From contig NZ_SBFF01000011.1 of NCBI RefSeq assembly GCF_004151485.1, forward strand, positions 8,036-72,035: DNA of 64,000 bases, read 5' to 3'. The notes beneath the pieces were generated by a model, which saw only the letters and a program-made list of their open reading frames with translations, was not told the DNA's origin and searched no databases. The translations under genes and the position numbers were made by a program. This document shows, in pieces, positions 51,992 to 64,000 of this stretch. The first letter of the stretch is position 1; each line of letters begins with the position of its first letter. The DNA is from Sphingosinicella sp. CPCC 101087 (GTDB lineage: Bacteria > Pseudomonadota > Alphaproteobacteria > Sphingomonadales > Sphingomonadaceae).

Positions 51992-53659
51992 ATGAGGGAC
52001 GAGGCGGTGGAGCGGCCGAAGCATCGGAAGCCGGCACAGAGCGAAAAGCTGGTGATCACCGCTTCCTCGCTCGGCACCGTGTTCGAATGGTACGATTTCT
52101 ACCTGTACGGGCTGCTCGCCGCGATCATCTCCGCCCAGTTCTTCTCGGGCGTCAACGAGACGACCGGCTTCATCTTCGCGCTGGCGGCCTTCGCCGCCGG
52201 CTTCGCGGTGCGGCCATTCGGCGCGATATTGTTCGGGCGGATCGGCGACCTGGTCGGGCGCAAGAACACTTTCCTCGTCACGATGGGCCTGATGGGCCTC
52301 TCGACTTTCGCCGTCGGACTGCTGCCGAGCTATGCCTCGATCGGAGTCGCCGCGCCGGTGATGCTGGTCGTGCTGCGGCTCATTCAGGGGCTGGCGCTCG
52401 GCGGCGAATATGGCGGCGCCGCCACTTATGTCGCCGAGCATGCGCCCAACCACCGGCGCGGCCTCTATACGAGCTTCATCCAGACGACCGCGACCCTAGG
52501 GCTTTTCGCGGCACTCCTGGTCGTGATCGGCATCCGCACCTGGCTCGGCGAGGAAGCCTTCGCCGCGTGGGGCTGGCGCCTGCCCTTCCTGATCTCGCTG
52601 GGTTTGCTCGCCGTGTCGCTATGGATCCGGCTGCAGCTCGAGGAGAGCCCGGTATTCCGCCGGATGAAGGCGGAAGGCACGACATCCAAGGCTCCGCTGA
52701 CGGAGGCCTTCGCCCGCTGGGGGAACCTGCGATGGGTGCTGATCGCCCTGTTCGGCGCCGTCGCGGGCCAGGCGGTGGTCTGGTATGCGGGCCAGTTCTA
52801 CGCGCTCTTCTTCCTCGAGCGGATGATGCGGGTCGATGGCGCGACGGCGAACATCATGATCGCGATCGCGCTGGCCATCGGCACGCCCGCCTTCATCCTG
52901 TTCGGCTGGCTCTCCGACAAGATCGGACGCAAGCCGATCATCCTGACCGGCTGCGCGCTCGCCGCCTTGACCTACTTTCCACTGTTCCACGCTCTCGCCG
53001 ATGCCGCCAACCCGGCGCTCAGCGCCGCCCAGGCGCGGGCGCCGGTCACGGTGATCGCCAACGCGGACGACTGCTCCGTGCAGTTCGACCCGATCGGGCG
53101 CAACCGCTTCGACCGCCGCAGCTGCGATATCGTGAAATCCTGGCTCGCCCGTGCCGGCGTGCCGTATGAGAATGTCGCCGCCCCTGCGGGAACAGTCGCG
53201 CGACTTCGGATCGGCGGCGTCGAGATAGCGGCGCCCGATCCCGCCCGGATGACCAACGAAGCCCGAGCGGCGGCAATCGGAGCCTTCCAGAACGAAGGCC
53301 AGACGGCGCTGACGGCAGCCGGCTACCCGAGCGAAGCGGACCCCGACTCGATCGACAAACCGAGGGTCGTGCTGATCCTCACCATCCTCGTCCTCTATGT
53401 GACCATGGTCTACGGCCCGATCGCGGCGATGCTCGTGGAGCTGTTTCCGGCTCGGATCCGCTACACCTCCATGTCGCTGCCCTACCATATCGGCAACGGC
53501 TGGTTCGGCGGCTTCCTTCCGACCACCGCCTTCGCCATGGTGGCCGCGACGGGGGACATCTATTACGGCCTCTGGTATCCTGTCGCGATCGCGGCGGCGA
53601 CGGTGCTGATCGGCGCCCTTTTCCTGCCGGAGACCCGAAAGCGGGAGATCGACCGCTAG
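51992..53659 (+). CDS. MHS-family MFS transporter with a soluble insert
   Basis: 555-aa symporter of the metabolite:H+ (MHS) family: GTVFEWYDFYLYGLLAAIIS, RPFGAILFGRIGDLVGRK, LALGGEYGGAATYVAEH, and later GWLSDKIGRKPIIL. Usual members are 420-450 aa. Here residues about 340-455 form a hydrophilic insert (PVTVIANADDCSVQFDPIG, two Cys) in the C-terminal half before LTILVLYVTMVYGP. The insert faces the periplasm if topology is standard, and might bind substrate. Substrate unknown. The gene precedes the TonB receptor by 158 bases, the gap holding a MarR-type site, so it is a separate unit. Confidence 0.85.
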   Translation: MRDEAVERPKHRKPAQSEKLVITASSLGTVFEWYDFYLYGLLAAIISAQFFSGVNETTGFIFALAAFAAGFAVRPFGAILFGRIGDLVGRKNTFLVTMGLMGLSTFAVGLLPSYASIGVAAPVMLVVLRLIQGLALGGEYGGAATYVAEHAPNHRRGLYTSFIQTTATLGLFAALLVVIGIRTWLGEEAFAAWGWRLPFLISLGLLAVSLWIRLQLEESPVFRRMKAEGTTSKAPLTEAFARWGNLRWVLIALFGAVAGQAVVWYAGQFYALFFLERMMRVDGATANIMIAIALAIGTPAFILFGWLSDKIGRKPIILTGCALAALTYFPLFHALADAANPALSAAQARAPVTVIANADDCSVQFDPIGRNRFDRRSCDIVKSWLARAGVPYENVAAPAGTVARLRIGGVEIAAPDPARMTNEARAAAIGAFQNEGQTALTAAGYPSEADPDSIDKPRVVLILTILVLYVTMVYGPIAAMLVELFPARIRYTSMSLPYHIGNGWFGGFLPTTAFAMVAATGDIYYGLWYPVAIAAATVLIGALFLPETRKREIDR

Positions 53660-53732: not shown

Positions 53733-53769
53733 GTTGACTGATCAACGGCATTTGGTAAGACGTCTGAAC
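53733..53769 (+). promoter_or_regulatory. Promoter/operator of the TonB receptor, member of the AGA-YG-TCT family
   Basis: TTGACT (53734-53739) is a likely -35 box inside the inverted repeat GTTGA-CTGA-TCAAC (53733-53746). TTTGGTAAGA-CG-TCTGAAC (53751-53769) follows, its left half identical to one half of the site at 59512. The second element would cover the -10 region (TAAGAC, 16-base spacer). Confidence 0.55.
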
Positions 53770-53817
53770 AAAATCGACGGCCGGCCAAGCGGCCCGTTGG
53801 ACAGGGAGAGTCGATCG

Positions 53818-56742
53818 ATGAACAGGCGGACCTTTGGCGCGCGAAGCCGTTCGCGCTTGCAGCTCGCGGCGCATGTCTGCGCCTTCGCCCTGATCGCGAC
53901 GCCGGCAGCGGCCGGAGCGCAGGCGACGAGTTCCGCCCCTGGTCAGCCGGTTGCGCCGAGCAGCGAAGCCGAGGATGCCGGATCGGATGTGACGGGAGCC
54001 GGGACGCAGACGCCCGCCGGCAGCGATGCCGAAGCGGCGGCAGCTTCGGAAAATATCGTCGTCACCGGATCGCGCATCGCGCGCAGCGGCTTCTCGGCGC
54101 CGACGCCCGTGACCGTGGTTGGGGCTTCGCGCTTCGAGGAACTGGCAGCGACCAATGCCGGCGAAGTGCTCGCCCAGCTCCCCTCCTTCCGGCCGACCAC
54201 GTCGCCCACGACCCAGGGCGTCTCGATCGGCACCGGCGGCGCCCGTACCGTGGACCTTCGCGGGCTCGGTGCGCCGCGCTCGCTCGTCCTGGTCGACGGC
54301 CGGCGCTTCATCGCAAGCACGGCGAACGGAAGCGTCGACACCAACCTCATCCCGAGCATCCTGATCGACCGGGTCGAACTGGTCACCGGCGGCGCCTCGG
54401 CCGCCTACGGCTCGGACGCCGTCGCCGGCGTCGTCAACTTCATCCTCAACAACCGGTTGCAGGGCGTGCGCGCCAACGTGCAGGCCGGGATCTCCGAGCG
54501 TGGGGACGATGGCGAACGCCTGTTCGCGCTTGCCGCCGGCACCAGCTTTGCCGGCGGACGTGGCCATGTCGTCGTCGGCGGCGAATATAACGACAGCGAC
54601 GGAATCGGCGGCTGCTACGGCTATTCGCTCTGCGCCCAGGAATGGCAGGTGCTGACCAATTCCGGCTTCGCCACCAACGGCCAGCCGGCGCGCATCATCG
54701 CCAATGACGTCCACACCGCGACCCAGACCTACGGGGGCCTCATCAACAGCCCCGGCCCGCTTCGCGGTATCCAGTTCGCGCCGGACGGCACGCCGATCCC
54801 CTTCGTCTACGGTCAGTTTGCCGGTTTGTTCATGCAAGGCGGAAGCGGCCATGGTCAGAATGCCTTCCGCTCCGGCGGCGTCATCGAAGTGCCGGTCGAG
54901 CGTTACGCGCTCTACGGCCATGCCGAATATGAAGCGGGCCCGGCCACGTTCTTCACCGACCTCTCCTTCGGCCGGGTGAAGGTGGTCACCCCCGGATCCC
55001 AGACCCGCGACACCAATCTCGTCATGCGCGTCGACAATCCGTACATTCCCCAGTCGATCCGGGACCAGATGGTTGCGCTCGCCATCCCGTCGATCACGAT
55101 CGGGCGTGTCGGCCAGGATCTCGGCCTCGCCATGGGGCTCAACACGACCGAGACCTTCCGCGGCGCCGCCGGCGTGGATGTCGAGCTCGGCAACGACTGG
55201 AGCGCCGACGCTTATTACCAATATGGCCGCACCGACGCGAAGCAGGTCGTCAGCAACAACCGCATCACGGCCAACTTCAACCGGGCGATCGACGCGGTGC
55301 GGGGTCCGGACGGAAACATCGTCTGCCGCGCCACCTTGAGTCCCGATCCGGCGGTCAGGGCGGCTGCGGCGGGCTGCGTCCCGCTCAACCTGTTCGGCCA
55401 GTACCAATGGTCCCAGGGCGCGAAGGACTATACGTTCGGTACCTCGATCCAGGACACGACCCTCGAGCAGCACGTCGTCGCCGCGAACGTGCAGGGCAAT
55501 CTGGTCGATTTCGGCTCCGGTCCGGTCTCGGTCGCCTTTGGCGGCGAGTATCGGCGCGAGCAGATCAGCGGCACGGCCGACCCGATCTCGCTGCAGAACG
55601 GCTTCTTCGTCAGCAACGCTTCGGCTTTCGATCCATCCCCGGTCGAGGTGGTCGAGGGCTATGCCGAAACGATCGTCCCGCTGCTGCGCGACCTGCCCAT
55701 GGCCAGGCGGCTGGAGCTCAACGCCGCCGCCCGCGTCACCAACTACAGCACCAGCGGGACCGTCTGGACGTGGAAGGTCGGCGGCGTCTACGAGCCGGTG
55801 GCCGGGCTTCGCCTCCGCGCCACCCGCTCGCGCGACATCCGCGCCCCCAATCCAAGCGAATTGTTCAGCCCGCTCGCCGGCCTTCAGACCTCGGTCTTCG
55901 ACGTCGTCACGAACACGCAGGTGCTGACGCGGATCTTCCGGGGCGGCAATCCGGACCTCGACCCCGAGATCGCCGACACCTTCACCGTCGGCGCCGTCCT
56001 TCAGCCCAGCTTCCTTCCGCGCCTGCGGCTTTCGGTCGACTATTACGACATCAAGATCGAGGACGCGATCGACCTCGTCGGCGCGCAGACGATCGCGGAC
56101 CGCTGCGCTGCCGGCGGCCAGGAATATTGCGCCTTGATCGCGCGCGACCCGGTGACGAACCTGATCGTGTCGGTGACCGACCAGTTCCTCAACGTGAACC
56201 AGGTCAAGACCCGGGGCATAGACATCGAGCTCGACTATGTTCACCGTTTCGACAGCGGCGGAACCCTCGCCTTCCGGACCCTTGCCAATCGCACCTTCGA
56301 TCTGATCCAGGTCGACAGCACCGGCGCGATCGACCGCGCGGGCCAGACGGGGCGCCAGGTCAGCGGCCCGATCGGCGTTCCCAAATATACGATCGATTCC
56401 ACCTTGAGCTACGACCAGGGACCTTATGGCGTCACCCTGCAGGGCCGCTACATCCCCTCCGGAAGCTATGACGCGTCGCTCATCGGTCCGGACGATCCGG
56501 ACTATTCGCCGACGCTTCCGAACAGCATCAACGACAATACGGTGGACGATTTCCTCACCTTCAATCTCACCGCCCGCTTCACCGTCGGTTCCGAGGACAG
56601 CCGCAAGATCCAGTTCTTCATGGCGGTCACCAACCTGTTCGATGTGGATCCGCCGCTCGCGCCGGGCAACGCCTATACGAACCCGATCTTCTTCGACCAG
56701 ACGGGCCGGGGCTATCGCGCGGGGGCGAGGCTGACCTTCTGA
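53818..56742 (+). CDS. Large TonB-dependent outer-membrane receptor of the catabolic cluster
   Basis: 974-aa TonB-dependent receptor. Signal peptide 1-38 (LAAHVCAFALIATPAAAGAQA), an Ala/Ser-rich linker, then a TonB-box-like/plug start VVTGSRIARSGFSAPTPVTVV (about 80) and plug domain (LAATNAGEVLAQLPSFRP, GGASAAYGSDAVAGVVNFIL) to about 230, and a large 22-strand-type barrel ending in GYRAGARLTF. It belongs to the sphingomonad family often tied to sugar or aromatic substrates; the ligand is inferred from context. ATG 53818 has GGGAGAG upstream. A MarR-type site lies in the promoter. The first monooxygenase gene starts 16 bases downstream, so they share a transcript. Confidence 0.92.
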   Translation: MNRRTFGARSRSRLQLAAHVCAFALIATPAAAGAQATSSAPGQPVAPSSEAEDAGSDVTGAGTQTPAGSDAEAAAASENIVVTGSRIARSGFSAPTPVTVVGASRFEELAATNAGEVLAQLPSFRPTTSPTTQGVSIGTGGARTVDLRGLGAPRSLVLVDGRRFIASTANGSVDTNLIPSILIDRVELVTGGASAAYGSDAVAGVVNFILNNRLQGVRANVQAGISERGDDGERLFALAAGTSFAGGRGHVVVGGEYNDSDGIGGCYGYSLCAQEWQVLTNSGFATNGQPARIIANDVHTATQTYGGLINSPGPLRGIQFAPDGTPIPFVYGQFAGLFMQGGSGHGQNAFRSGGVIEVPVERYALYGHAEYEAGPATFFTDLSFGRVKVVTPGSQTRDTNLVMRVDNPYIPQSIRDQMVALAIPSITIGRVGQDLGLAMGLNTTETFRGAAGVDVELGNDWSADAYYQYGRTDAKQVVSNNRITANFNRAIDAVRGPDGNIVCRATLSPDPAVRAAAAGCVPLNLFGQYQWSQGAKDYTFGTSIQDTTLEQHVVAANVQGNLVDFGSGPVSVAFGGEYRREQISGTADPISLQNGFFVSNASAFDPSPVEVVEGYAETIVPLLRDLPMARRLELNAAARVTNYSTSGTVWTWKVGGVYEPVAGLRLRATRSRDIRAPNPSELFSPLAGLQTSVFDVVTNTQVLTRIFRGGNPDLDPEIADTFTVGAVLQPSFLPRLRLSVDYYDIKIEDAIDLVGAQTIADRCAAGGQEYCALIARDPVTNLIVSVTDQFLNVNQVKTRGIDIELDYVHRFDSGGTLAFRTLANRTFDLIQVDSTGAIDRAGQTGRQVSGPIGVPKYTIDSTLSYDQGPYGVTLQGRYIPSGSYDASLIGPDDPDYSPTLPNSINDNTVDDFLTFNLTARFTVGSEDSRKIQFFMAVTNLFDVDPPLAPGNAYTNPIFFDQTGRGYRAGARLTF

Positions 56743-56758
56743 CCCGGGAAAGGCGGCC

Positions 56759-58453
56759 GTGAACGGGCGCGATTCGACCGAGCCCCGGACCCCCCCGCCG
56801 CGCACGATCGGCGCCGGCGAGGCCGACGTCATCATCGTCGGTGCCGGTCCGGTAGGCATGACCCTGGGGATGGATCTCGCCGACCGCGGGGTCCATGTCG
56901 TGGTCGTCGAGACGCGGGCGCGGCGCGAACCCCCATCGGTCAAATGCAACCATATCTCGGCGCGGACGATGGAGACGTTCCGGCGCCTCGGAGTCGCCGA
57001 TGCGCTGCGCGACACACGAGGCCTGCCATTCGACCATCCGAACGACGTCGCATTCCGGACGGCGATGGTGGCGGAATATGAGCTGGCGCGGATCGTCATT
57101 CCCTGCCGCCGCGATCGTCTCACCGCGACCGGCGGGCCAGACACCTGGTGGCCGACGCCCGAGCCTCCGCACCGCCTCAACCAGATCGACATGGAGCCGG
57201 TGTTGTTCGATCATCTCGAACGGCGACGCCGAGTGACCATCCTCAACCGTACCCGCGTCGAGTCGATCGAGGAGGACGACCAGGGGATCGATGCCGTCGC
57301 GACGGATCTCGAAACCGGGGACCGGAAGCGCCTCCGTGCCCGGTTTCTGATCGGCTGCGACGGCGCGCGCTCATTGGTGCGCAAGCATATCGGCGCCGCC
57401 TTCGAAGGCACGCCACGGCTGTACGACGTCCAGTCGACCTTCATCCGCGCGCCCACCTTGCGGGGGCTCCTCCGCCACGATCCGGCCTGGATGACGATCG
57501 CCAACAATCCTCGACGATGCGGCTCCGTGCTCGCGATCGACGGACAGGAGACGTGGCTGGTGCACAACAGCCTTCTACCCGGCGAGACCTATGCTTCGGT
57601 CGATCGCGACCGAGCGATCCGCGATATTCTCGGCGTAGGATCGGACTTCGACTATGAAGTGATCGCCCACGAAGACTGGACGGCTAGGCGGCTCGTCGCC
57701 GATCGCTTCCGGAAGGGACGCGTCTTCATCTGCGGCGACGCGGCGCAATTGTGGGTGCCGATGGCCGGCTATGGCATGAATGCCGGCATCGCCTCGGCGA
57801 TGGACCTTTCATGGATGCTCGCCGCCCATCTTCATGGCTGGGCGGGACCCGCGATCCTGGACGCCTACGAGGCCGAGCGCCGCCCGATCAGCGACCAGGT
57901 CTCACGCTTCGCAATGGATCACGCCTTCCGGGTCATGGCCGACCGCAAGCATGTTCCCGCGGAGATCGAGCAGCCGGGCAGTCCGGGGGAGGAAGTACGG
58001 GCAGCGGCCGGCAAGGCGCTCTACGAGCTCAACGTCCAGCAATTCTGCTGCGGCGGGCTCAACTTCGGCTATTATTACGATCGCTCGCCCATCATCGTCT
58101 ATGATGGCGAGGCCCCGCCGGACTATTCGATGTACGATTTCACGCCATCGACCGCGCCGGGCTGCCGGCTTCCCCACTTCACGCTGTCCGACGGACGGTC
58201 GCTTTACGACGCGCTAGGCGCCGACTTCACCCTGATCCGAATGGACCGCGACGTTGTCGCCGATGGCGTGCTGAAAGCGGCTTCGGAGCGCGGCGTTCCG
58301 ATCACGCTTCTCGACCTCGACCAGTCGGCGGCGCCCGCCGAATATCGCCACCCGCTGCTGCTCGTCCGCCCGGATCGCCACATCGCGTGGCGCGGCCACC
58401 ATCTTCCGGGCGATCCGGAGAAAATCGTGAAGCTGGTGAGCGCCGGCGACTAG
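56759..58453 (+). CDS. FAD-dependent aromatic hydroxylase-like monooxygenase, copy 1
   Basis: 564-aa class A flavoprotein monooxygenase (MhpA/phenol hydroxylase type), expected to hydroxylate a phenolic ring with NAD(P)H and O2. GxGxxG at VIIVGAGPVGMTL (about 24-36), the DG motif LIGCDGARSLVR (about 198-209) and the GD motif VFICGDAAQLWVPMAGYGMNAG (about 322) are present; the latter has Gln where most have His (GDAAH). The C-terminal thioredoxin-like domain (about 455-564) ends HIAWRGHHLPGDP. The start is GTG. It is read with the TonB receptor. The stop overlaps that of the convergent amidohydrolase by 3 bases. Confidence 0.88.
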   Translation: MNGRDSTEPRTPPPRTIGAGEADVIIVGAGPVGMTLGMDLADRGVHVVVVETRARREPPSVKCNHISARTMETFRRLGVADALRDTRGLPFDHPNDVAFRTAMVAEYELARIVIPCRRDRLTATGGPDTWWPTPEPPHRLNQIDMEPVLFDHLERRRRVTILNRTRVESIEEDDQGIDAVATDLETGDRKRLRARFLIGCDGARSLVRKHIGAAFEGTPRLYDVQSTFIRAPTLRGLLRHDPAWMTIANNPRRCGSVLAIDGQETWLVHNSLLPGETYASVDRDRAIRDILGVGSDFDYEVIAHEDWTARRLVADRFRKGRVFICGDAAQLWVPMAGYGMNAGIASAMDLSWMLAAHLHGWAGPAILDAYEAERRPISDQVSRFAMDHAFRVMADRKHVPAEIEQPGSPGEEVRAAAGKALYELNVQQFCCGGLNFGYYYDRSPIIVYDGEAPPDYSMYDFTPSTAPGCRLPHFTLSDGRSLYDALGADFTLIRMDRDVVADGVLKAASERGVPITLLDLDQSAAPAEYRHPLLLVRPDRHIAWRGHHLPGDPEKIVKLVSAGD

Positions 58454-59457
58454 GCGTCATCCTCTCCTATCCCGAACAGTCCGGCGGCGTTCTCAGAAAA
58501 GATCGGCGCCTGCGCTTCCGGCGCGAGCGCGGACACGCGCCTCGTGACGCCCTCGGCGTCGGCGATCAGGAACGGGTAATCGGACCCGAACATGATGCGA
58601 TCGGCGCCGACCTGCTTTACCAGGAGGTCGAGCGCATTCTGGTCGTAGACGATGGCGTCGAACCAGAATCGGCGCAGATAGGTGCTTGGCGGCGAAAAGA
58701 CCTTCCGAACGCTCCGGGATCGGTGCCACATCTGGTCGAAGCGGCCGATCAGGTAGGGCAAGGTGCCGCCACCGTGACAGGCGATGAGGTCCAGCTTCGG
58801 ATGTCGATCGACGAAGCCGTCGAGGATCATGCGCGCGAAACAGGCGGTCGTGTCCATCATGAAGCCCACCGTGTTGGACAGGCCGAAGCCTTCGAGACCA
58901 AGCGTGGCGGCGTCGATGAACGGCGTGGTCGGATGGATGAAGGCCGGAAGCCCGCTCGCCTCGATCGCCGTCCAGATCGGCTCGAAATCCGGATCGGTCA
59001 GGTGCCGGCCAAGGATGTTGGTGAGAAGGCACACGCCGACCGCCCCCATCCCTTTAGCGCGTTCCAGCTCCGCGACCGCATCTTCGGGATATTCCCACGG
59101 CAAGGAGGCCATCCAGCGGATCCTCTTGCCATATTTGCGCTCGGCTGCGGCGAAATCGTCATTCACCTGCCGCGCAGCGGCGATGCTGAGCTCGCGGCTT
59201 CCCCAATAGACGTTGGGGCAGGTCAGGCTGATGATCGAAACGTCGATCGAATCGCGATCCATCGCCTCCATGCGCAGATCGAAATCGGTCATCTCCGGCG
59301 ACAGGCGAACGATCGGGGCGCCGCGATAGTCGACGATCTCGTGGGGAGTGCCCGGAACGATGCGGACGTTCGGGTCCGGATTCTCCTTCAGCAGCCGCAC
59401 CCATTCGGGCGTGAACATGTGGGTATGAACGTCGATGATCCTGCGGTCCTGCACCAT
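58450..59457 (-). CDS. Amidohydrolase-2 family protein, ACMSD-like decarboxylase
   Basis: 335-aa TIM-barrel metalloenzyme of the ACMSD/amidohydrolase-related branch, whose members are mostly decarboxylases or hydratases of aromatic or ring-cleavage acids. The metal-binding HxH is IIDVHTHMF (His about 11 and 13); further ligands are in FIHPTTPF, IACHGGGTLPYL and the catalytic Asp in MFGSDYPFL (about 292). The substrate cannot be read off. ATG 59457 follows GGAGAGGAA. It is divergent from the LigW-like gene, sharing a 123-base promoter region with a palindromic site. Confidence 0.85.
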   Translation of the reverse strand: MVQDRRIIDVHTHMFTPEWVRLLKENPDPNVRIVPGTPHEIVDYRGAPIVRLSPEMTDFDLRMEAMDRDSIDVSIISLTCPNVYWGSRELSIAAARQVNDDFAAAERKYGKRIRWMASLPWEYPEDAVAELERAKGMGAVGVCLLTNILGRHLTDPDFEPIWTAIEASGLPAFIHPTTPFIDAATLGLEGFGLSNTVGFMMDTTACFARMILDGFVDRHPKLDLIACHGGGTLPYLIGRFDQMWHRSRSVRKVFSPPSTYLRRFWFDAIVYDQNALDLLVKQVGADRIMFGSDYPFLIADAEGVTRRVSALAPEAQAPIFSENAAGLFGIGEDDA

Positions 59458-59511
59458 ATTTCCTCTCCGTCCCGGGCCTCGGCCCCTTCGGCCTTCCGGC
59501 ATATTGCAAAA

Positions 59512-59531
59512 TTTGTAAGATGTCTTACCAA
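59512..59531. promoter_or_regulatory. Central palindromic operator between two divergent amidohydrolase genes
   Basis: GTAAGA-TG-TCTTAC (59515-59528) is a perfect 14-base palindrome, extending to TTTGTAAGA/TCTTACCAA with one mismatch. It is the best-conserved member of a set also seen at 53751, 61206 and about 62979. A MarR-family dimer typically binds such a site. Confidence 0.72.
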
Positions 59532-59580
59532 TACGCGCCTTGCTGTCAACGCGAGCGCCACGCCGGGAGGAAAGTTGAGC

Positions 59581-60594
59581 ATGAACGGGGAAAGCTGGCG
59601 CCGAATCGCCACCGAGGAAGCGTTCGCGACCCGCGAGCTGGCGGGCGCGATGCGCCGCCTCGTCGACGCCGGCGGCAGCAGCGTCGACCTCATGTTCTGG
59701 CGCGGGCTTCTGTTCCGGGAGGATGACGACCGGCTGGCGAACCTGCTCGATCTCGATGAGCGCCGCCTGGCGACGATGGACGCGAACGGCGTGGACATGC
59801 ACGTGCTGTCGCTCACCTCTCCAGGCGTCCAGATGCTGGATCCCGCTGAAGCAGCGGAGATTGCGGCAGACGCCAACGACCAGCTCGCCGCCGCCATTGC
59901 ACGCCACCCGGGCCGCTATGCCGGCCTTGCCGCCTTCGCGCCGCAGGACCCCGAGGAGGCGGTTCGCGAAATGGAGCGCTCCGTCACGCGGCTCGGCCTC
60001 AACGGCTTCATCGTCAACAGCCATACCGACGGCGAATATCTGGACCAGCCGAAATATTGGCCGATCCTGGAAGCGGCCGAGGCGCTCGGTGCGCCGATCT
60101 ACATCCATCCACGCTCGCTCCCCGACGAGGCGGTCGGCCCCTATCGCGACCACAGCCTGTGGACCGCCATGTGGGGGTTCGCCGCGGAGACCGGGCTTCA
60201 CGGAATGCGGCTGATCGTCTCGGGCGTCCTGGACCGCTTTCCGAAGCTGAAGATCGTCCTCGGCCATCTGGGCGAGGGCATTCCCTACTGGGTCTATCGG
60301 ATCGACCACATGTATCCGAAGATGGCCCGCCGCCACCCGGTGCGGATCGAGCTTGCCCCGAGCGAGTATCTGAAGCGCAACTTCGTGATCACGACCAGCG
60401 GAATGAACCATCATCCCGCGCTCGAATACTGCCTACAAGTTCTCGGGCCCGACAATATCATGTGGGCGATCGATTATCCCTACCAGGCGATGGACGAAGC
60501 CGTCGCCTTCATGGACGGCGCGCCCATCAGCGACGCGGACAGGCGCAAGATCTATTCGCTCAATGCCCTGCGCGAATTCCGAATTACCGGCTGA
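59581..60594 (+). CDS. Amidohydrolase-family decarboxylase, LigW-like
   Basis: 337-aa metal-dependent amidohydrolase closely resembling 5-carboxyvanillate decarboxylase LigW as I recall it: N-terminal RIATEEAFATREL, LDLDERRLATMDANGVDMHVLSLTSPGVQ, NSHTDGEYLD and IYIHPRS. Metal ligands are Glu (TEEAF), His in YIHP, His in LGHLGEGIPYW and Asp in AIDYPYQ. Non-oxidative decarboxylation of a hydroxybenzoate-type acid is the best guess. ATG 59581 has GGGAGG upstream; the frame is open far beyond. marR follows after 68 bases in the same direction. Confidence 0.86.
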   Translation: MNGESWRRIATEEAFATRELAGAMRRLVDAGGSSVDLMFWRGLLFREDDDRLANLLDLDERRLATMDANGVDMHVLSLTSPGVQMLDPAEAAEIAADANDQLAAAIARHPGRYAGLAAFAPQDPEEAVREMERSVTRLGLNGFIVNSHTDGEYLDQPKYWPILEAAEALGAPIYIHPRSLPDEAVGPYRDHSLWTAMWGFAAETGLHGMRLIVSGVLDRFPKLKIVLGHLGEGIPYWVYRIDHMYPKMARRHPVRIELAPSEYLKRNFVITTSGMNHHPALEYCLQVLGPDNIMWAIDYPYQAMDEAVAFMDGAPISDADRRKIYSLNALREFRITG

Positions 60595-60662
60595 CATCCT
60601 CGAGCGCAGGCCTTGCGTCATTCCTGTCCGCGGCTCAATGAAGGTCCAGGAGAGGGAATTTC

Positions 60663-61166
60663 ATGGCTAAGGATCGGACGGAGGTCGCGCGGGAGATATT
60701 GCGGGTCCTCTATGCGCGTCCCGGTTTTCTTATCCGCCGGGCGCATCAAATCACCGAAGGCCTGTTCGCCGACATGGCGGGAAGCCTCAACATCACGCCG
60801 ACCCAATTCGGCGCCCTCACCGTGGTCAGCGCGCTCGAACCGATCGACCAGATCAGTCTCGCGCGCGCGCTCGGTCTCGATCGCTCGACGACCGGCCTGG
60901 TCGTCGCCAATCTCGAAAGCCGCGGCCTGATCACGCGCACGACCGATCCCGGCGACCGGCGCCGAAGGGTGCTTGCCACCACGGCGGAGGGCCGCGACAT
61001 GCTCCAACGGATTACCGTCGTCGCTCGCGAGGTCCAGGACGTCACGCTGGAGATATTCGACGAGCAGGAGCGCCGGACCTTCCTCGCCCTGCTGGCCAAG
61101 CTGGTCGATCGTTTCAACGCCAGCGTCCGCACGCCGCTGATCACGGATCCCGCCGAGCTGAGCTGA
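60663..61166 (+). CDS. MarR-family transcriptional regulator of the catabolic cluster
   Basis: 167-aa winged-helix regulator. HTH and wing: TPTQFGALTVVSAL, DQISLARALGLDRSTTGLVVANLESRGLI (recognition helix) and RTTDPGDRRRRVLATTAEG. Dimerisation helices lie at 5-35 and 120-160. MarR proteins often respond to phenolic acids or their CoA esters. It has no obvious copy of the palindrome in the 68 bases upstream, so it may be read with the LigW-like gene. It is the only regulator gene inside the cluster and the natural candidate to bind the four palindromes. Confidence 0.93.
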   Translation: MAKDRTEVAREILRVLYARPGFLIRRAHQITEGLFADMAGSLNITPTQFGALTVVSALEPIDQISLARALGLDRSTTGLVVANLESRGLITRTTDPGDRRRRVLATTAEGRDMLQRITVVAREVQDVTLEIFDEQERRTFLALLAKLVDRFNASVRTPLITDPAELS

Positions 61167-61205
61167 CCGAAGCGGGCGGCGACCGCGGTTTCAACCTTGC
61201 AGATC

Positions 61206-61219
61206 ATCAGATGTCTGAT
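61206..61219 (+). promoter_or_regulatory. Palindromic operator upstream of the second monooxygenase
   Basis: ATCAGA-TG-TCTGAT, a perfect 14-base palindrome 54 bases upstream of the ATG at 61273 and 40 bases after the marR stop. It shares the AGA-YG-TCT core and spacing with the sites at 53751, 59512 and 62979. Confidence 0.68.
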
Positions 61220-61272
61220 TACTCTCGGCCCCGCTGGCGTGAGCACGCCAGGGCGGAAAGCGAAGGGAGTTG

Positions 61273-62886
61273 ATGGATATCCGGCCAGCCAGTGTCCTCA
61301 TCGCCGGAGGCGGGCCCGTCGGCCTCGGCCTCGCCATCGAGCTCGGCCAGCGCGGAACCCGGACGCTGGTCGTGGAGCGGAACCCGCAGGTCCACCGCGT
61401 CCCGAAGGGACAGAACCTCACCCAGCGGAGCATGGAGCATTTTCGCGCCTGGGGCTGCGAGTCCGAACTGCGCGCCGCCCGCCCGATTCCGCCGGAATAT
61501 GGGATTGGCGGCCTGACCGCCTACGGCACCCTGCTCGGCCAATATCATTATGACTGGCTCCAGAGGGAGCTCGTTCGCCCCTTTTATGCAACCGACAACG
61601 AGCGACTTCCGCAGTATGAGACCGAGCGGGTCCTTCGCGAGCGGGCGGCGCAGCTGGAGGCGGTCGAGATCCTTTATGGCTGGACCGCGTCGGATGCGGA
61701 GCAGAATGGCGACGGGGTCCGCCTGCGCGTGCGGCGGGAGGAGGATGGCGAAGCGCACTGGCTGACGGCCGACTATCTGGTCGGATGCGACGGAAGCCGG
61801 TCTGCCGTGCGGGAAAGCGCCGGTATCGGCCAGACCGTCCTCGACCATGACAAGCGCATGGTGCTGCTCGTCCTTCGCTCACAGCAGCTCCACGAATTGC
61901 TCGGCCGCTTTGCGGGCAAGTCTTTCTTCAACATCCTTCCTCCCCGGCTTCAGGGCTATTGGCAGTTTCTGGGCCGGGTCGATCTCGGCACCCGCTGGTT
62001 CTTCCATGCGCCGGTACCGCCCCAGGCCGCGCACGAGGATTTCGATTTCGCCGCCTGTCTCCACGAGGCCGTCGGCGCGCCGTTCGATTTCGAGCTGGAA
62101 CATATCGGGTTCTGGGACCTGCGGTTCGCCAATGCCGAGGCTTATTCGAGCGGCCGCGTCTTCATTGCCGGTGATGCCGCGCACAGCCACCCGCCATATG
62201 GCGGCTATGGAATCAATCTGGGGTTCGAGGATGCCCGAAATCTCGGATGGAAGCTCGCCGCGACGATCGAGGGATGGGGCGGGCCGTCGCTGCTCGACAG
62301 CTACGGCGAGGAACGGCGCGCTATCTTCGCGTCGACGGCGACGGACTTCATCAACCGGCTGATCAACGATGATCGGCGCTTCCTCGAGGCCTTCGATCCC
62401 GAGGTGGATCGCGCGGCCTTCGAACAGGAATGGGCCCGCCGCGCCGGCGGCGCCCGCACCGACGTGGGCGCCTACGCGCCGCATTATTCCGGATCGCCGG
62501 TCGTCTGGAGCGCGCAAGGGAGCAAGTCGGACGCCAAAGGCGGCCACGACTTCCGGGCACGGGCCGGTCATCATCTGGCGCCGCTTCCCTCGTCCGGCGA
62601 AACGACGACCCTGGATTCGCTCGGCTCCGGCTTCACCTTGCTGAACGTGGATGGCGATCCGCAATGGATCGACGCCTTTGCCGCCGCCGCGTCGTCGCTC
62701 GGCATTCCGCTCGACATAGCGGACCTGGGCGAGGCCGGCTCTTCCTATCGGGCCGCGATGATCCTCGTTCGCCCGGACGGCTTCGTCGCCTGGGCCGCGG
62801 ACGGGCGGATCGAGGAACCTGTCGAGGTCCTCCTGCGCGCGACGGGCGGCGGAAGCGCGAATGCCTCGTCGGCGCGTGCCGCATGA
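61273..62886 (+). CDS. FAD-dependent aromatic hydroxylase-like monooxygenase, copy 2
   Basis: 537-aa class A flavoprotein monooxygenase. GxGxxG is LIAGGGPVGLGLAIELGQRG, the DG motif YLVGCDGSRSAVRE and the GD motif RVFIAGDAAHSHPPYGGYGIN, here with the canonical His. The C-terminal thioredoxin-like domain (about 430-525) contains LGSGFTLLNVDG and ILVRPDGFVAWAADG. It is only distantly like the copy at 56759, so the two should act on different intermediates. ATG 61273 is preceded by a TTG and by AAGGGAG at tight spacing; either may be used. Its own palindromic site lies upstream. Confidence 0.88.
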   Translation: MDIRPASVLIAGGGPVGLGLAIELGQRGTRTLVVERNPQVHRVPKGQNLTQRSMEHFRAWGCESELRAARPIPPEYGIGGLTAYGTLLGQYHYDWLQRELVRPFYATDNERLPQYETERVLRERAAQLEAVEILYGWTASDAEQNGDGVRLRVRREEDGEAHWLTADYLVGCDGSRSAVRESAGIGQTVLDHDKRMVLLVLRSQQLHELLGRFAGKSFFNILPPRLQGYWQFLGRVDLGTRWFFHAPVPPQAAHEDFDFAACLHEAVGAPFDFELEHIGFWDLRFANAEAYSSGRVFIAGDAAHSHPPYGGYGINLGFEDARNLGWKLAATIEGWGGPSLLDSYGEERRAIFASTATDFINRLINDDRRFLEAFDPEVDRAAFEQEWARRAGGARTDVGAYAPHYSGSPVVWSAQGSKSDAKGGHDFRARAGHHLAPLPSSGETTTLDSLGSGFTLLNVDGDPQWIDAFAAAASSLGIPLDIADLGEAGSSYRAAMILVRPDGFVAWAADGRIEEPVEVLLRATGGGSANASSARAA

Positions 62887-62949
62887 GTCGCTTCGCGCAA
62901 GCAACCCTCCCCGCGCCGAACCGAGTCCCGCGCGCGGTGCGGCACCTCG

Positions 62950-62995
62950 TTGACAGGCCACCTGCCAGCGCGGATATGTTCACACGTCTGATTAA
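62950..62995 (+). promoter_or_regulatory. Promoter/operator of the AAHS-type transporter
   Basis: TTGACA (62950-62955) followed by GATATG about 17 bases on. GTTCACA-CG-TCTGATTAAC at 62979-62997 has a right half (TCTGAT) identical to the site at 61206 and a weaker left half. CCTCGTTGAC just before it also precedes the TonB receptor site (near 53729), so the two promoters look related. Confidence 0.55.
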
Positions 62996-63067
62996 CAGCT
63001 TCGATGGCGGTGAAGAGCGGGCGACGAGAGGCCCCGGCGCCGCCATGTCGATGAGGATGGCCGGATC

Positions 63068-64000
63068 ATGAAGAAGGTGAACGTTCAGGAGGCGATCGAC
63101 GAGGCGAAGCTCTCGTCGCTGCAGATCTTCCTGCTTTCCGCCTGCACGGCGATCATGCTGTTCGACGGGCTCGACATGTACATGCTCGGCAAGCTCGCCC
63201 CGGCGGTAGCCGAGTCGTTCGGGCAGCCGACCAGCTCGATGGCGACGGTCTTCTTCTTTCAGCAGATCGGGCTTGCCGCCGGCGCCTTTCTCATCAGTCC
63301 GCTCGCCGATCGCTACGGCCGCAAGCCAATGCTGCTGTGGAGCACGTTCGCATTCGGCCTGCTCACCCTCGCCGCGGTGTGGGCGCAGAGCATCTACCAA
63401 GTCGCCGTGCTCCGCGGGCTGGCCGGGCTCTTCCTGGCCTCCATCATTCCCAATGTGGTGGCCCTGCTCACCGAATATGCGCCGTCGAGGAACCGCTCCA
63501 CATTCGTGACGATCGCCTTCACCGGATTCTCCAGCGGCGGCGCGGTCGCTTCCGGAATCGTGATCTGGCTGCTCGACAGCCACGGATGGCAGAGCGCGTT
63601 CTGGATCGGCGGCCTCACGCCGCTGCTGCTGCTCCCGATCCTCAATTTCTGCATTCCCGAGTCGATCCAGTTCAGGGTCCAGCGCAACCCTCGCGATCCG
63701 AGCATCGGGAGGACTCTCGCGCGGATCAATCCGGCGCTCGCGCTCGCCCCCGATGCCGAGTTCGTGAGCAGCGCGAGGAAGTCCGACGATCGCAAGGGGC
63801 GCCTCATCGACGTCTTCACCGAGGGCCGCGGCGCCGTCACCGCGATCCTGTGGATGGTCTATTTCATCGCTCTGTCCTCCATCGCCTTGTTCACCTCCTT
63901 CGTCCCGACCTTTTTCTACGAACTGGGCGGCGTGACCCTCCAGGCCTATGCCGCCGTGTCGCTCATCTCGCTCGTGGTCGGCCTGGTCGGCTCGTCGACC
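63068..64000 (+). CDS. AAHS-family aromatic acid MFS transporter, 3' end outside the window
   Basis: First 311 codons of a major facilitator, open to the end of the window. It matches the aromatic acid:H+ symporter (AAHS) family of PcaK/BenK type: IMLFDGLDMYMLGKLAPAVA in helix 1 contains the DGxD motif needed for aromatic acid uptake; SPLADRYGRKPML is the loop 2-3 motif, and RGLAGLFLASIIPNVVALLTEYAP is helix 4. Related carriers import 4-hydroxybenzoate, protocatechuate, benzoate or vanillate. The ATG at 63068 has GATGAGGATGG upstream. Its promoter carries the cluster's palindrome. Confidence 0.88.
   Translation, partial: MKKVNVQEAIDEAKLSSLQIFLLSACTAIMLFDGLDMYMLGKLAPAVAESFGQPTSSMATVFFFQQIGLAAGAFLISPLADRYGRKPMLLWSTFAFGLLTLAAVWAQSIYQVAVLRGLAGLFLASIIPNVVALLTEYAPSRNRSTFVTIAFTGFSSGGAVASGIVIWLLDSHGWQSAFWIGGLTPLLLLPILNFCIPESIQFRVQRNPRDPSIGRTLARINPALALAPDAEFVSSARKSDDRKGRLIDVFTEGRGAVTAILWMVYFIALSSIALFTSFVPTFFYELGGVTLQAYAAVSLISLVVGLVGSST

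Follow-up and report, generated by a model that had tools for sequence, protein, structure and literature searches.

Short palindromes as candidate operators of a MarR-type regulator in an aromatic uptake and decarboxylation cluster of Sphingosinicella sp. CPCC 101087

The window analyzed here is a 64 kb stretch (contig C3:8036-72035) of the 4,702,612-base, 44-contig genome of Sphingosinicella sp. CPCC 101087. It carries an aromatic uptake and breakdown cluster around a gene for a MarR-family regulator (60663..61166, plus strand), whose winged helix-turn-helix domain scores above the curated cut-off (Pfam MarR PF01047, 52.4 bits against 24.6). A TonB-dependent receptor gene (53818..56742, plus strand; Pfam Plug and beta-barrel) is followed after 16 bp by the gene for flavin adenine dinucleotide (FAD) monooxygenase 1 (56759..58453, plus strand), a relative of RebC and 2-hydroxybiphenyl 3-monooxygenase. 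Two amidohydrolase genes, both for Amidohydro_2 proteins, diverge from each other. AH1 (58450..59457, minus strand) is an Amidohydro_2 protein with uracil-5-carboxylate and ACMS decarboxylases among its relatives, and AH2 (59581..60594, plus strand) is of the 5-carboxyvanillate decarboxylase (LigW) type (PDB 4icm, E 4.3e-97). Domain and family matches identify FAD monooxygenase 2 (61273..62886, plus strand). The gene of a major facilitator superfamily (MFS) transporter of the aromatic acid/H+ symport (AAHS) type starts at 63068 on the plus strand and runs past the window end at 64000 (TIGR00895, 301.6 bits, below the cut-off of 418.55). Outside the window, two further LigW-type genes follow it, AH3 (L020:12530-13651) and AH4 (L020:13730-14797, minus strand). 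We read a set of palindromes in front of these genes as operators of the MarR protein, which is predicted to repress a regulon for uptake, hydroxylation, and decarboxylation and would be released by an aromatic acid. We put the probability of this reading at about 0.85.

The preliminary description had reported four such palindromes, each just upstream of a cluster gene. All four sequences are present as it quoted them; the start of the fourth is 62979 and not 62980, one base earlier. Site 1, TTGGTAAGACGTCTGAACAA (53752..53771), lies before the putative TonB receptor-monooxygenase 1 operon, site 2, TTTGTAAGATGTCTTACCAA (59512..59531), between AH1 and AH2, site 3, ATCATCAGATGTCTGATTAC (61203..61222), before monooxygenase 2, and site 4, ATGTTCACACGTCTGATTAA (62976..62995), before the AAHS gene. 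Their centers are 56 to 82 bp from the start codons that we judged likely: 56 bp at site 1, 59 and 65 bp for the two divergent genes at site 2, 60 bp at site 3, and 82 bp at site 4. A fifth site, TTGGTAAGACGTCTTAGCAA (C3:74800; L020:14797-14816), lies 2.8 kb past the window end, beyond the stretch that the preliminary description covered. It is a perfect palindrome upstream of AH4, approximately 30 bp 5′ of the preferred AH4 start codon; the longest AH4 reading frame starts at the edge of the site. Sites 1, 2, 3, and 5 match the core TNAGAYGTCTNA exactly, and site 4 has one mismatch. When the five sites are aligned on their centers, eight of the 24 columns are invariant (T4, T7, A9, A11, T14, T16, A18, and A21), and the consensus is TTGNTMAGAYGTCTKANCAA.

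The exact core is rare in this genome, and its copies there are confined to this cluster. In the whole genome TNAGAYGTCTNA occurs at four places, all inside the cluster over approximately 13 kb (sites 1-3 and site 5), which is not the random scatter that would have spoken against the proposed regulon. When reversed, the same pattern has no exact genome match. Within the window, AGANGTCTNA gives 4 matches where 0.53 are expected, and none of 100 shuffles reaches 4; the 4 matches are 3 places, with site 1 matching on both strands. Allowing one mismatch raises the number of genome places to 36. Six of these fall within 12 kb of the MarR gene, where 0.15 are expected, a figure that is partly circular in that the pattern was derived from three of the sites.

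This circularity is absent from a profile, R1, built from 13 sites of five relatives, each in both orientations, with no site from this genome (9 of the sites lie near the MarR gene and 4 elsewhere in the same relatives' genomes). Run unfiltered over the window at E<=10, R1 returned exactly four places, namely 53751, 59510, and 61203 (12.1-12.7 bits) and 62980 (6.4 bits). Sites 1, 2, and 3 score 12.7, 12.2, and 12.2 bits, and site 5 scores 10.7 bits. Over the whole genome at E<=10, R1 found sites 1-3 only (150 of 308 candidates scored). Sites 1-3 are secure, and site 4, with 6.4 bits (E 1.2 in 64 kb), is the weakest member. A sixth candidate, TATGATGTCTGA at C3:76503, was not counted (R1 3.7 bits, E 3.1 in 20 kb). 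It lies at L020:16504-16515, just 5′ of a small gene that matches no Pfam family, and is probably a chance occurrence.

Relatives of the MarR protein were found at E<=1e-25 in 11 of 298 genomes of the family (this genome included), 8 of 396 of the order, and 12 of 398 of the phylum, and at E<=1e-20 in 2 of 26 genomes of the genus; these sets overlap. A scan of named genomes gave three weak mycobacterial matches, whose loci held no match to a cluster protein at E<=1e-8. We read the MarR loci of 23 relatives, in stretches of 3 to 20 kb each. Seven of them (L036-L041 and L059) belong to a clade whose MarR proteins are 42-50% identical to that of the window and have the recognition helix DRSTT[GA]LV. 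This helix is common to the MarR proteins of the six motif-bearing loci. In the tree these six form one group of eight rows together with L036 and L037, with support of 93/92, just under the program's star.

The motif recurs where a MarR of the same clade is present, and the conservation in related clusters on which the regulon idea depends was thus found. The seven clade loci (139 kb) hold 3 exact and 8 one-mismatch copies, and the 16 loci of more distant MarR proteins (291 kb) hold no exact copy and 4 one-mismatch copies, in 3 loci. G297, which belongs to the same genus, has 34 places that match with up to one mismatch; 8 of these are found within 30 kb of its MarR gene (expected 0.41, P 1e-8). 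The figures for G497 are 7 of 29 (expected 0.29, P 3e-8). These clustering figures cover two of the seven relatives and use rounded genome sizes. The reverse profile R2, built from the five sites of this genome, was run over 16 other genomes and matched five: four of the seven carriers of the clade (G297, G028, G134, and G497), none of the four carriers of more distant MarR proteins, and one of the five without a MarR match (G266). Over 25 loci from this genome and its relatives (461 kb), R2 gave 12 matches at E<=3, all in L038, L040, L041, L100, and L102, which all belong to carriers of the clade.

The placing of the relatives' sites is also that of candidate operators. In six stretches chosen for containing sites, our own simple gene caller puts 13 of 15 sites between genes; the remaining two are close to the 5′ ends of gene calls that look over-long. 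TonB receptor genes lie behind sites in G297 (two), G134, and G220. Further genes behind the relatives' sites include those for thiamine diphosphate (TPP)-dependent enzymes, glutathione S-transferase (GST), aldehyde dehydrogenase, and MFS proteins. The motif also precedes a LigY-type operon, whose LigY orthologue (E 1.8e-169 against the LigY of solved structure) is accompanied by LigB-type dioxygenase and RraA-type genes. The G497 cluster contains a LigXa-like Rieske protein.

A number of observations weigh against an operator of this clade, and some of them would fit palindromes that arose by chance and were over-read by eye. The motif is short, and site 4 taken alone is not significant. With up to one mismatch, the motif is no commoner in this genome than its backward control (29/27 against 36/32 matches). 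Over 17 genomes the backward control has almost as many exact matches as the motif (14 against 16, forward matches); the difference is in placing, not in number. Exact places that resemble chance lie within a called gene in G028 and G407 and are unlinked in G134, G032, G042, and G266; in G266, where this MarR was not found at E<=1e-25, there are two exact places in addition to the R2 match. Two of the seven clade loci have no promoter site near the gene. These are the near-identical L036 and L037 (G224 and G042), which have a clade MarR and, in the 20 kb covered, only a one-mismatch copy approximately 2.5 kb from its gene; in L036 this copy lies inside called genes. The exact genome-wide places number 0 in G224 and 1 in G042. 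R2 found nothing in the carriers G220, G224, and G042, and the sites of G220 have one mismatch. L040 and L041 have near-identical sites and are not independent. When 60 palindromes permuted from the same letters were searched for in the seven clade loci from other genomes, the motif shared the top rank with two of them (3 of 7 loci; mean 0.23). Of 3000 random-letter palindromes, GC-rich patterns included, 303 reach at least 3 of 7 loci, as the motif does, and counts of loci alone are therefore a weak test. Against chance stand the recovery of sites 1-3 by a profile that had seen no site of this genome, the confinement of all exact genome places to one cluster, and the clustering around the MarR gene in two relatives. 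We give almost no credence to chance as the explanation.

The palindromes could also be real operators of another regulator, a different MarR or a TetR-type protein, with the MarR encoded at 60663 as a mere neighbor. This genome has 22 MarR-like places at E<=0.01, that of the window included, so that other binders are possible, and a TetR gene adjoins one site in G497 (L059). However, the sites accompany this MarR clade in five other genomes with five genus labels, one of them the genus of the window, and with differing surrounding genes. On contig C8 of this genome, the MarR gene that adjoins ligXa has no motif beside it. We consider another regulator improbable. A further rival reading is that the window MarR is an orthologue of DdvR, the known repressor of the 5,5′-dehydrodivanillate (DDVA) genes, and the palindrome a DdvR operator. 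The layout of MarR, TonB receptor, and MFS gene is the same as in the DdvR system as excerpted from PMC6874591, the motif precedes LigY- and LigZ-like genes in relatives, and the G497 cluster has its LigXa-like gene. For the comparison, the MarR beside ligXa was taken as DdvR from its place; on C8 and in G144 it is divergent from ligXa and scores above the Pfam MarR cut-off. G144 is presumed to be Sphingobium sp. SYK-6, and its order ligZ-ligY-ligXa-ligW fits the locus tags in the excerpt of PMC12997858. The window MarR lies outside any ligXa/ligZ/ligY cluster, and this genome has a separate LigZ-LigY-LigXa cluster on C8 with its own MarR. Local identity of the window MarR is 26% over 82 residues to the C8 protein and 24% over 136 residues to the G144 protein, but these two are 66% identical to each other and form a separate branch with support of 100/100. 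The motif, with up to one mismatch, is absent from L126, L127, L129-L133, and L135-L137, and a single one-mismatch copy in L128 is approximately 16 kb from ligXa. We rejected DdvR orthology on this distant branching of the MarR proteins beside ligXa, and regard it as very unlikely.

The second cluster of this genome (C8:12000-31999, L126; L137:4576-7518) has the order LigZ-RraA-RraA-LigY-LigXa, with the DdvR-type MarR beside ligXa and a TonB receptor gene approximately 9 kb before ligZ. At L134/L039 (G220), L097/L038 (G297), L040 (G028), and L041 (G134), LigY-type clusters have in their vicinity a MarR that belongs to the present clade rather than to the DdvR type. In these four genomes the clade's MarR gene is approximately 1.5 to 23 kb from the ligY gene. 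The regulator appears to have been exchanged for one pathway, and in this genome two such clusters seem to stand under two MarR lineages. As a tentative extension, the clade with its 20-bp operator may be an alternative master regulator, separate from DdvR, for carboxylated lignin-type aromatics in sphingomonads. It might serve LigXa/LigZ/LigY-type DDVA pathways in place of DdvR in some genomes and, in the present one, a LigW-type cluster beside a DdvR-governed second cluster. The inducer could then be their common node, an acid like 5-carboxyvanillate, the product of LigY and substrate of LigW. This extension is less probable than its negation.

Returning to the MarR encoded at 60663 as the repressor acting on these palindromes, we computed the sites, the rarity of exact copies, the association with the MarR clade, and the gene families, and from these we infer binding, repression, promoter positions, operon limits, and the ligand. 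The preliminary description had placed four palindromes under this one protein. The rarity of the motif and its recurrence with the clade support that claim, with site 4 as its weak part and site 5 as an addition. The 20-bp palindromes before five to six putative operons agree with the 16-20 bp palindromic operators of MarR-family proteins. A MarR dimer would bind with one half-site per winged helix. At least five promoters would be repressed, those of TonB receptor-monooxygenase 1, AH1, AH2-marR, monooxygenase 2, and AH4; AAHS-AH3 would probably be repressed too, through the weaker site 4. There is no operator site in the 68-bp gap between AH2 and the MarR gene, which is probably co-transcribed with AH2 behind site 2. 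Self-control would therefore go via site 2 and the AH2 gene. A -35-like TTGACT (53734..53739, plus strand) is located 24 nt before the core of site 1, and a TTGACA facing AH1 (59544..59549, minus strand) has the same spacing of 24 nt to the core of site 2. At site 4 a TTGACA is found at 32 nt. A consensus promoter scan gave 2 hits against 1.4 expected, none of them at the sites, and listed neither of the two TTGAC-type boxes. For site 1, and for site 2 in the AH1 direction, the operator may overlap the -10 region, and repression would in that case be steric.

Release of MarR proteins by phenolic ligands is a known property of the family. The proposed effector is an aromatic acid that the pathway takes in as a substrate or forms as an intermediate. 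Its binding would free the MarR protein from the DNA, and uptake across the outer and inner membranes, hydroxylation, and decarboxylation would be turned on at once. A conserved arginine pair, R25 and R26, is seen in the MarR alignment; by analogy with Arg15 of PcaV, we presume that it has a role in ligand binding. To judge from gene content, the inducer is most likely a carboxylated methoxyphenol or a relative of one. This guess is made because AH2, AH3, and AH4 are, by homology, closest among solved structures to the LigW/LigW2 5-carboxyvanillate decarboxylases (best E 4e-97, 1e-87, and 1e-102) and LigW enzymes also take 5-carboxyferulate (PMC12997858 and PMC11323797, in excerpt).

The LigW step itself does not appear to be what the operator has in common across genomes. 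At E<=1e-40 there are six LigW-type genes in this genome, three in the cluster and the others on C1, C11, and C12; no motif with up to one mismatch was found in the 4 kb covered around the latter three. Such genes are also present in G134, G028, G497, and G144, and at the same threshold were not found in G297, G220, G224, and G042. The LigW-type genes of other genomes have no motif in the 3.7-4 kb covered around them. These absences do not favor a shared LigW step under the operator. Two neighboring genes may be mentioned. An MFS gene of the metabolite/H+ symporter type (51992-53659; below the model cut-off) precedes site 1, has no palindrome of its own, and encodes a protein that seems to carry roughly 100 additional residues in the second half. 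The gene of a third FAD aromatic-ring monooxygenase (L020:17190-18722) is located 2.4 kb past site 5 and has no exact motif before it.

These results provide a testable operator and regulon for an aromatic uptake and breakdown cluster with three LigW-type decarboxylases, and they connect the cluster with a TonB receptor and a transporter of the inner membrane. Control of LigY-type lignin-dimer pathways may, moreover, be shared between two distant MarR lineages. Use of the protein in an aromatic-acid sensor is conceivable once its ligand is known.

Regulons of this kind are well known, and what appears as new within the reach of our literature searches is this particular operator, its regulon, and the double use of the clade. 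Searches by topic and by the literal motif string found no description of this operator among the papers listed, which for the string search were judged by title, in a comparison that did not extend to the DdvR and FerC operators, and it is not mentioned in the excerpts of the MarR review PMC10458429 or of PMC12997858 and PMC11323797. The known systems are described here from excerpts of the papers cited. DesR, CouR, and DdvR are known to repress until an aromatic compound or its CoA ester relieves the repression (PMC6888825, PMC4737184, PMC6874591); PheR belongs to the IclR family (PMC13273656). In SYK-6, the MarR-type DdvR represses ligXa and the TonB receptor gene ddvT (PMC6874591). In both systems, genes for a TonB receptor, an MFS transporter, and aromatic catabolism adjoin that of the MarR-type protein, but here three LigW-type decarboxylases and FAD monooxygenases take the place of LigXa/LigZ/LigY. 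The ligXa-side MarR also differs in its branch, and its clusters lack this palindrome apart from the L128 copy. DesR of SYK-6, likewise a MarR repressor, has vanillate and syringate as ligands, and its target genes are preceded by a 15-bp inverted repeat (PMC6888825). Its operators, GTTTGTGTCACATAC and GTTTGTGTAACATAC, differ by eye from TNAGAYGTCTNA, and the sites here are not near copies of GTTTGTGTCACATAC. The MarR-like Saro_0803 of Novosphingobium aromaticivorans is released by the phenolic resveratrol, but has the operator GCAATA-N6-TATTGC (PMC10046596). Its NCBIfam model, NF053777, is the best-scoring one for the window MarR, which at 70 bits against a cut-off of 200 falls outside that family; the MarR proteins of two relatives reach 66.4 and 67.6 bits. 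CouR of Rhodococcus jostii RHA1 is similar in that one MarR protein acts on four promoters of a single catabolic regulon, with an inverted repeat at each. It is unlike the MarR protein described here in its operator, cATTGA-N5-TCAATg, which lies over the -35 box, and in its ligand, a CoA thioester (PMC4737184).

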